From: Fervidobacterium pennivorans
Lineage (GTDB): Bacteria; Thermotogota; Thermotogae; Thermotogales; Fervidobacteriaceae
NCBI RefSeq assembly: GCF_001644665.1
Contig: NZ_CP011393.1
Location: 828,001 to 892,000, forward strand
Direction: 5' to 3'
Length of the DNA: 64,000 bases
Position 1 is the first letter of the stretch. Each line of letters opens with the position of its first letter. The position numbers and the translations under genes are program-made. Under the pieces are notes generated by a model that saw only the letters and a list, made by a program, of their open reading frames with translations, ran no database searches and was not told the DNA's origin. This document shows, piece after piece, positions 19,226 to 32,370 of this stretch.

Positions 19226-20136
19226 TGGACCAAGATTTCAACAATCAGCTACCGTCTCAATATGTCCGTATGTTTCGAAATATAATCGTCGGAAAGACTC
19301 CTCTTATTTATCTGGAGAAATACTCTATTTACGCTAAGGTTGAGCGAAACAACCTTACAGGTAGCGTTAAGGATAGACCTGTCTACTTTATGATTTTGAA
19401 AGCTTTAAAAGACGGATTAATAAATCCCAATACTATCATCGTCGAGCCGACAAGCGGTAACACGGGAATTGCGCTAGCATGGATAGGTGCGAAGCTGGGT
19501 CTAAAAACAATCCTTACAATGCCAGAAACCGTTTCTGTCGAACGACGTCAGATATTGACAAGTTTAGGTGCAGACGTAATCCTTACCGAAAACATGTCGA
19601 AGGCGGTAGAAAAAGCGCTTGAGATTGTTTCAACAAAATCCGCGTTCATGCCAAATCAATTTGAGAATCCTGAAAATGTAAATGCACATTTTGTGACAAC
19701 CGGACCAGAGTTGTTGAGCCAAATGGATTATCAGTTGGATGCCTTTGTCGCAGGTATCGGAACTGGAGGAACAATAACCGGGGTTGGGAAGTTTCTAAAA
19801 AACTTTTGTTCAGAAATCAAAATAATAGGTGCAGAACCTTTACAATCACCTGTTATAACTGGAGGAATACCAGGTAAACACAGAATCCAAGGCATCGGTG
19901 CTGGATTCGTACCCAAAATCTTGGATTTACAGGTGGTAGATGAAGTTATTCAAGTAGATGACGAAGAAGCTATAAGATGGACTTCTAAGCTTTGGAAGGA
20001 AGGGATATTCGTAGGAATATCGTCCGCTGCTAACCTAATCGCAAGTATATTAGTTAAAGAAAAGTATGGCTTACAGCGTGTTGCAACCGTTTTTCCAGAC
20101 GATGGCTCGAAGTATATTTCGGTTCTCTCTAGGTAG
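19183..20136 (+). CDS. cysK: Cysteine synthase (O-acetylserine sulfhydrylase)
   Basis: A 317-residue PLP enzyme of the beta family that makes cysteine from O-acetylserine and sulfide. The PLP lysine lies in N-L-T-G-S-V-K-D-R near residue 63, the substrate loop P-T-S-G-N-T-G near 92, and the phosphate-binding G-I-G-T-G-G-T-I-T-G near 192. TTG at 19183 has GGGGGTG 7 bases upstream; ATG at 19225 is an alternative with a weak site. It overlaps cysE and shares its promoter. Confidence 0.92.
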   Translation: MSQKGKQPKEGSDVMDQDFNNQLPSQYVRMFRNIIVGKTPLIYLEKYSIYAKVERNNLTGSVKDRPVYFMILKALKDGLINPNTIIVEPTSGNTGIALAWIGAKLGLKTILTMPETVSVERRQILTSLGADVILTENMSKAVEKALEIVSTKSAFMPNQFENPENVNAHFVTTGPELLSQMDYQLDAFVAGIGTGGTITGVGKFLKNFCSEIKIIGAEPLQSPVITGGIPGKHRIQGIGAGFVPKILDLQVVDEVIQVDDEEAIRWTSKLWKEGIFVGISSAANLIASILVKEKYGLQRVATVFPDDGSKYISVLSR

Positions 20137-20144
20137 AAAGTAAT

Positions 20145-20229
20145 AAAAAAAATAAACGTGTGCACGCCTGTGGCGTGCACACATAACGTATAGAGACAGC
20201 TCCCACCTATCCCCAGTACCCCCATTACT
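20145..20229 (-). ncRNA. Candidate small RNA with its own promoter and terminator
   Basis: No gene covers this region, yet the minus strand has a consensus promoter (next entry) and, about 45 bases after the predicted start, a 11-bp perfect hairpin GTGTGCACGCC / GGCGTGCACAC (20159-20169 and 20173-20183) with a three-base loop, followed by GTTTATTTTTTTT. The implied RNA is about 85 bases and roughly 56% GC in the 72 bases before the U-tract, far above its surroundings. Its 5' half has G-runs of 5, 4, 2 and 3 bases within 24 bases. No open reading frame of note is inside. I do not recognise it as 6S, SRP, tmRNA or a tRNA. Confidence 0.6.
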
Positions 20230-20235
20230 GCACAT

Positions 20236-20265
20236 AGTATACCACTTCTTAGGAAGTAATGTCAA
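20236..20265 (-). promoter_or_regulatory. Promoter of the candidate small RNA
   Basis: On the minus strand TTGACA (20265-20260) and TATACT (20241-20236) are separated by 18 bases, a near-consensus sigma-A type promoter with no coding gene downstream. Confidence 0.65.
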
Positions 20266-20383
20266 ATTTCGGGAAAGTTTTTTCAAAAAAAGTTCGCTTG
20301 TCCGCATAAATAAATACTTTGGACAACTTTTGGTATCTGTCTACGAAGGTGTATATCAAAGATTGGACTTGTGCAAAAAGAAT

Positions 20384-20475: not shown

Positions 20476-20742
20476 ATGGAGATTTTGAAGGTCAGCTCAA
20501 AGTCAAGTCCAAACAAAGTTGCGGGTGCTATTGTGGGTTCTCTCAAGAAGAACGAAAAGGTGGAAATTCAAGCTATTGGTGCTGGTGCAGTTAACCAAGC
20601 ATCAAAATCTTTGGCCGTTGCTAGGAGGTTTTTGGAACAAGAAGGATTAGACCTCTACGTTGTCCCAGCGTTCATCGAAATTCAAATTGGTAATGAAACA
20701 AGAACCGGCATATCTTTCAAAGTTTACCTTCAAAAGAAGTGA
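20476..20742 (+). CDS. spoVS: SpoVS-family protein
   Basis: An 88-residue protein of the SpoVS family, small alpha/beta proteins structurally related to Alba. Signature stretches are L-K-V-S-S-K-S-S-P-N-K-V-A-G-A-I, E-I-Q-A-I-G-A-G-A-V-N-Q-A and V-P-A-F-I-E-I. In Bacillus it affects sporulation; in non-sporulating Thermotogales its role is unknown but nucleic-acid binding is plausible. AAGGAGGATAGG precedes the ATG. It has its own promoter. Confidence 0.93.
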   Translation: MEILKVSSKSSPNKVAGAIVGSLKKNEKVEIQAIGAGAVNQASKSLAVARRFLEQEGLDLYVVPAFIEIQIGNETRTGISFKVYLQKK

Positions 20743-32339: not shown

Positions 32340-32370
32340 ACTTACACCTCCTATTAAATAGTGTGGGCAT

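Follow-up and report, generated by a model that had tools for sequence, protein, structure and literature searches.

A candidate trans-acting small RNA with an invariant G-rich core in Fervidobacterium

The minus strand of the Fervidobacterium pennivorans genome carries, between a gene for a cysK-like PLP enzyme (PF00291, plus strand, stop at 20136) and spoVS (PF04232, plus strand, 20476-20742), a locus that very likely gives rise to a real working RNA, and we consider it with high confidence to be a functional small RNA (sRNA) gene. Positions are those of the window, the whole stretch of 64,000 nucleotides that was analysed (NZ_CP011393.1, 828,001 to 892,000). Judged by an Rfam search, the sRNA would form a new family of a kind already known, the trans-acting sRNAs with an intrinsic terminator. 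The mechanism that we favour, in which an independently transcribed sRNA acts in trans through pairing of its core with C/U-rich target RNA, has as a whole a probability of about 0.4; transcription, action in trans, the core as the active part, base-pairing, and the involvement of Hfq and of every other partner named below are deduced from the sequence. The locus comprises the following features:

20302..20330, minus strand: conserved upstream element, AAAGTTGTC(n)TATTTATGCGG (identity, pattern uniqueness)
20236..20265, minus strand: promoter, TTGACA-18-TATACT with extended -10 (TGG) (sequence, box conservation, single occurrence)
20147..20229, minus strand: putative small RNA of ~83 nt from its predicted start (sequence features, nine homologues)
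20203..20223, minus strand: G-rich core of 21 nt, GGGGG[T/C]ACTGGGGATAGGTGG (identity 0.98)
20183..20202, minus strand: variable linker, 19-37 nt in relatives (identity 0.34)
20158..20182, minus strand: terminator hairpin with sequence-conserved arms (pairing across the alignment, arm identity)
20147..20157, minus strand: terminator T-tract (sequence)

Conservation and architecture of the locus

DNA and covariance searches recovered homologues in nine genomes, namely eight of nine Fervidobacterium genomes (F. pennivorans included) and one of two from the sister genus, with covariance-model E-values of 1e-19 to 1e-23. Conservation in nine genomes places the locus well beyond chance, and the promoter, G-runs and hairpin were all retained in close relatives, as expected if the first-pass annotation was right in proposing an orphan locus for a small RNA that has both a promoter of its own and an intrinsic terminator. 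No match was found in G002 and G009; since pyrC, the usual upstream neighbour, sits at a contig end in both assemblies, absence of the sRNA there is not established. In a search of 103 genomes from the class, scores beyond these homologues fell from E ~1e-20 to a chance-like 1e-3, and the weak covariance-model matches in other families contained no convincing core plus hairpin. An exact scan for GGGGGNACTGGGGATAGGTGG in ~85,000 species genomes returned, outside Fervidobacterium, a single chance match, which lies inside a glycosyltransferase-like coding gene. A mobile or viral origin was rejected, as viral 15-mer matches had neither a preceding G-run nor a following hairpin and there was no plasmid match. 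As far as searched, the sRNA appears restricted to Fervidobacterium and a sister genus. Rfam 15, queried at gathering and relaxed thresholds, returned no family (19.7 bits at best, with a cut-off of 100), in keeping with the earlier remark that no known RNA family could be recognised. In G008, copies at 32348 and 2254138, near both contig ends, have identical 3-kb flanks, which probably reflect untrimmed overlapping ends of a circular assembly and not a duplication.

The promoter described in the first-pass annotation is present, with a -35 box (TTGACA, 20265-20260) and a -10 box (TATACT, 20241-20236) that are separated by 18 nt and together score 11/12 matches; a TG precedes the -10 box on the minus strand (TGG), making it an extended -10. 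Promoter spacing would place the sRNA start at ~20229, as previously suggested. Mean pairwise identity is 0.92 for the -35 box and 0.82 for the -10 box, compared to 0.39 for the promoter spacer, and is 0.52 between the -10 box and the core. Box sequences and spacer length are kept across homologues, as a transcribed unit would show, and the exact string TTGACA-N15-TGN-TATACT occurs only once, at the sRNA promoter, in the 864 kb of the F. pennivorans genome that were sampled. This arrangement of a -35 plus an extended -10 is also the type favoured by promoters of functional RNAs in T. maritima, according to a multi-omic study (PMC3636130). In addition, a conserved element lies ~70-100 nt 5' of the sRNA start, with an identity of 0.70 compared to 0.31-0.36 in both flanks, and its combined pattern was found nowhere else in the same 864 kb. 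The element accompanies the sRNA even in species where pyrC is not a neighbour and may be a regulator binding site or a UP-type element. In the form AAAGTTGTC(7)TnTATTTATGCGG (AAAGTTGTC...ATGCGG), it was seen in most homologues, ahead of the sRNA promoter.

Conservation across the nine-genome alignment argues well for a modular architecture of the RNA body, with mean pairwise identities of 0.98 for the core, 0.34 for the linker and 0.91 for the hairpin. The core, which contains the G-runs of 5, 4, 2 and 3 reported earlier (within 20223-20202, minus strand), is exact in 9/9 genomes except for one T/C position, while the linker differs among homologues in both sequence and length. The hairpin, GTGTGCACGCC-ACA-GGCGTGCACAC (20182-20158), has the 11 bp previously described, extended to 13 in F. 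pennivorans by two flanking pairs, and is followed by the T-tract. All of its cells are paired across the alignment; G006 shows one fully compensatory change, from C-G to U-A, and another pair varies on one side. In a comparison set of 17 orthologous gene pairs with an intrinsic terminator in both members, terminator arms were on average 0.49 identical between F. pennivorans and G006, close to the 0.45 of random pairs, and the sole one above 0.67 belonged to a false gene in rRNA; the corresponding value for the sRNA terminator is 0.91. Together with the single compensatory pair, this arm identity indicates that the hairpin retains its stem and, for the most part, its exact letters too. Of the compensatory changes that the first-pass annotation expected, only one fully compensatory pair is seen, and the case for an sRNA rests on sequence conservation.

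The ~83-nt RNA folds far more stably than shuffled sequences (z -5.3), almost entirely because of the terminator hairpin, and the G-rich half has no conserved pairing partner within the linker. The idea that high local GC marks structured RNA at this locus consequently holds for the terminator and not for the G-rich half. Folds predicted for 65 C leave most of the core unpaired in the more divergent homologues G001, G003 and G006, and in the closest relatives the linker is able to pair with it. An ATG ahead of the G-run is replaced by CG in three of the nine homologues and the part downstream cannot be aligned; with the ATG not kept and the linker not coding, a short-protein reading was rejected and the locus can be regarded as non-coding, in agreement with the first-pass annotation.

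How the RNA may act

Under the favoured mechanism, a strong promoter with a -35 box and an extended -10 would drive synthesis of an RNA of ~83-100 nt that ends at the intrinsic terminator. Its invariant 21-nt G-rich 5' core would be the part acting in trans, most likely by pairing with one or several target RNAs at C/U-rich stretches, with Hfq perhaps bound to the U-tail. The linker would serve as a spacer only, and the 3' hairpin would both terminate transcription and have a sequence-specific role, for example in protein binding or stability. Trans-acting sRNAs usually combine a conserved, often free 5' segment with a U-tailed terminator behind it. We place base-pairing first because the RNA has such a segment and terminator, because an Hfq gene is present (3/3 genomes tested), and because its promoter is of the type favoured in T. 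maritima. The traits of the class are likewise found here, including an own promoter, an intrinsic terminator, independence of neighbouring genes and a conserved recognition segment (core 0.98 versus linker 0.34). At 21 nt, the invariant core exceeds the length of a typical seed, so that protein binding is also conceivable; most likely the core would act either on C/U-rich RNA through base-pairing or as the binding site of a protein, CsrA being one example.

Target searches with the core returned no conserved target: a G:U-tolerant search for the 21-nt complement in ten genomes gave scattered matches only. One of these lies inside polA in G003 alone (G003:C71:8333-8353, L120) and is probably due to chance. 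In a duplex scan of 191 orthologous gene starts, covering ~40% of two genomes, the top match was no better than those of shuffled cores (fraction 0.60), with a marginal excess among the top ten (fraction 0.04).

These outcomes are also compatible with an RNA that serves as the scaffold of a ribonucleoprotein, in which protein recognises both the G-rich core and the sequence-conserved hairpin. Such a scaffold would account for two modules under sequence constraint with a freely varying spacer between them and for terminator arms conserved far past the needs of termination, but there is no candidate protein and a comparison of neighbours across the homologues revealed no co-conserved gene, and we regard it as possible though unlikely. 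That a lineage-specific RNA with both modules read by protein would constitute a novel type of small RNP among the thermophilic Thermotogota seems slightly less likely again.

A more specific role in protein binding, which we consider doubtful, is that of a CsrA decoy, with the two GGA motifs of the core (UGGGGAUAG and GUGGGAG) sequestering CsrA as the RNA arm of the flagellin-controlling FliW-CsrA switch. The csrA gene is present in 15/15 genomes tested, including F. pennivorans, where it adjoins fliW in a fliW-csrA operon, but it is equally present in genomes without an RNA match. Both GGA motifs are kept in all homologues, the second moving by one base where GGTGGGA becomes GGTGGAA, and the sole core substitution, U to C, preserves a predicted UAC/GUG stem around GGGGAUA; placement of the motifs in hairpin loops is nevertheless weak by predicted folds. 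A match to the published SELEX consensus RUACARGGAUGU requires a gap, the core offers only two GGA sites ~9 nt apart where CsrB/RsmZ have many, and CsrA leaves the invariant GGGGG and AUAGGU unexplained. Furthermore, Campylobacter jejuni, also a FliW organism, is described as being without antagonizing sRNAs (PMC4894983). On the side of possible CsrA targets, flagellin leaders bear GGA sites of the AUGGAGGUG type. One flagellin class (L299, L300, L301, L302, L303) has a conserved leader with AGGA/TGGA ~30 nt and CACATGGAGGTG ~14 nt before the start, which resemble paired CsrA sites. G006 has several flagellin genes, and in one of them (L301, 1604484-1604894) codon 13 is an in-frame TAG (MRINHNVNALNS*RN); intact paralogues lie next to it.

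Neighbouring genes bear on whether the locus is instead a DNA-level element, a cis-acting leader or an antisense RNA, such as a cysK 3' antisense or an attenuator. Upstream, six genomes have a divergent pyrC that carries a PyrR-type leader, and the other three have spoVS. Downstream, the neighbour is a convergent cysK in five genomes, a convergent ackA in G013 and a same-strand membrane protein gene in G001 and G005 (pyrC and ackA were named from reading of translations). The convergent cysK genes and the hairpin, which is a DNA palindrome, would suit a cis or DNA-level role, but the downstream gene is not conserved and promoter boxes and spacer length are kept as in a transcribed unit, leaving this explanation improbable. 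A riboswitch or attenuator leader and a cysK cis-antisense RNA were rejected because the neighbours differ, with no same-strand downstream gene conserved; that downstream genes vary while the RNA stays argues against an attenuator, riboswitch or cis-antisense RNA and suggests that the RNA acts alone. The dihydroorotase gene pyrC, divergent from the sRNA, is preceded by the PyrR-type leader (GGTTAATTTGGTCCAGCGAGGCCAAAACC, followed by a terminator) at L005, L006, L007, L008 and L010. Such a leader is also found before pyrC in F. pennivorans (L152) and G004 (L154); in these two genomes the sRNA lies at another place.

The first-pass annotation had further suggested that the G-runs form a two-layer G-quadruplex, which would make the RNA a regulatory quadruplex. 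Four runs of at least two Gs are retained in 9/9 homologues, but the residues between them are as conserved as the Gs, and ViennaRNA with quadruplex energies, which are crude for two layers, did not favour a quadruplex at 37, 65 or 70 C. With loops conserved like the G-runs and no energy model in favour, the quadruplex is not supported, and we consider it very improbable.

Least probable of all is a link of the core to 23S rRNA by pairing or mimicry, with GGATAGGTGGGAG identical to one 23S stretch and GGGTACTGGG complementary to another: equally good matches occur in only 0.4% and 3.3% of shuffled cores but in 3.7% and 3.6% of natural G-rich 30-mers (a control set from which rRNA was not removed), and in G001, G003 and G005 it is exactly the 23S-matched stretch of the core that has changed (GGTGGAAA; U replaced by C in G001 and G005), at positions where 23S itself should be constant. 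The 23S pattern itself had no match in the assemblies of these three genomes. Pairing or mimicry was rejected because the short matches are lost when the core changes and ~3-4% of G-rich controls match equally well.

Relation to known small RNAs

With the Hfq-type trans-acting sRNAs that end at an intrinsic terminator, the Fervidobacterium sRNA shares a sigma-70 promoter, a length of ~80-100 nt, a conserved 5' segment, a variable middle and a 3' hairpin with a U-tail. Unlike them, it has an invariant G-rich segment of 21 nt and sequence-conserved terminator arms, and its Hfq binding and target are putative. RepG of Helicobacter pylori directs a C/U-rich loop against G-repeats. The likeness to RepG lies in homopolymer-based recognition, without homology, and in Fervidobacterium it is the RNA itself that is G-rich. 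CsrB, CsrC, RsmZ and McaS also contain GGA motifs, one of which would lie in a possible loop of the Fervidobacterium sRNA, whereas the latter has two GGA sites only, a FliW-CsrA host and a gapped match to the consensus. The putative ncRNAs of T. maritima come from the same order of thermophiles and have a similar promoter type (PMC3636130); genome searches found no homologue of the sRNA outside Fervidobacterium and its sister genus.

Small RNAs have barely been described in the Thermotogota. The multi-omic study of T. maritima reports only ~12-13 putative ncRNAs, without definable structure at 80 C (PMC3636130). An sRNA family with an invariant core and a sequence-conserved terminator, in hosts that grow at ~65-70 C, would offer a concrete entry to sRNA recognition at high temperature. 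In addition, the family bears on whether bacteria with a FliW-CsrA system too use RNA antagonists.
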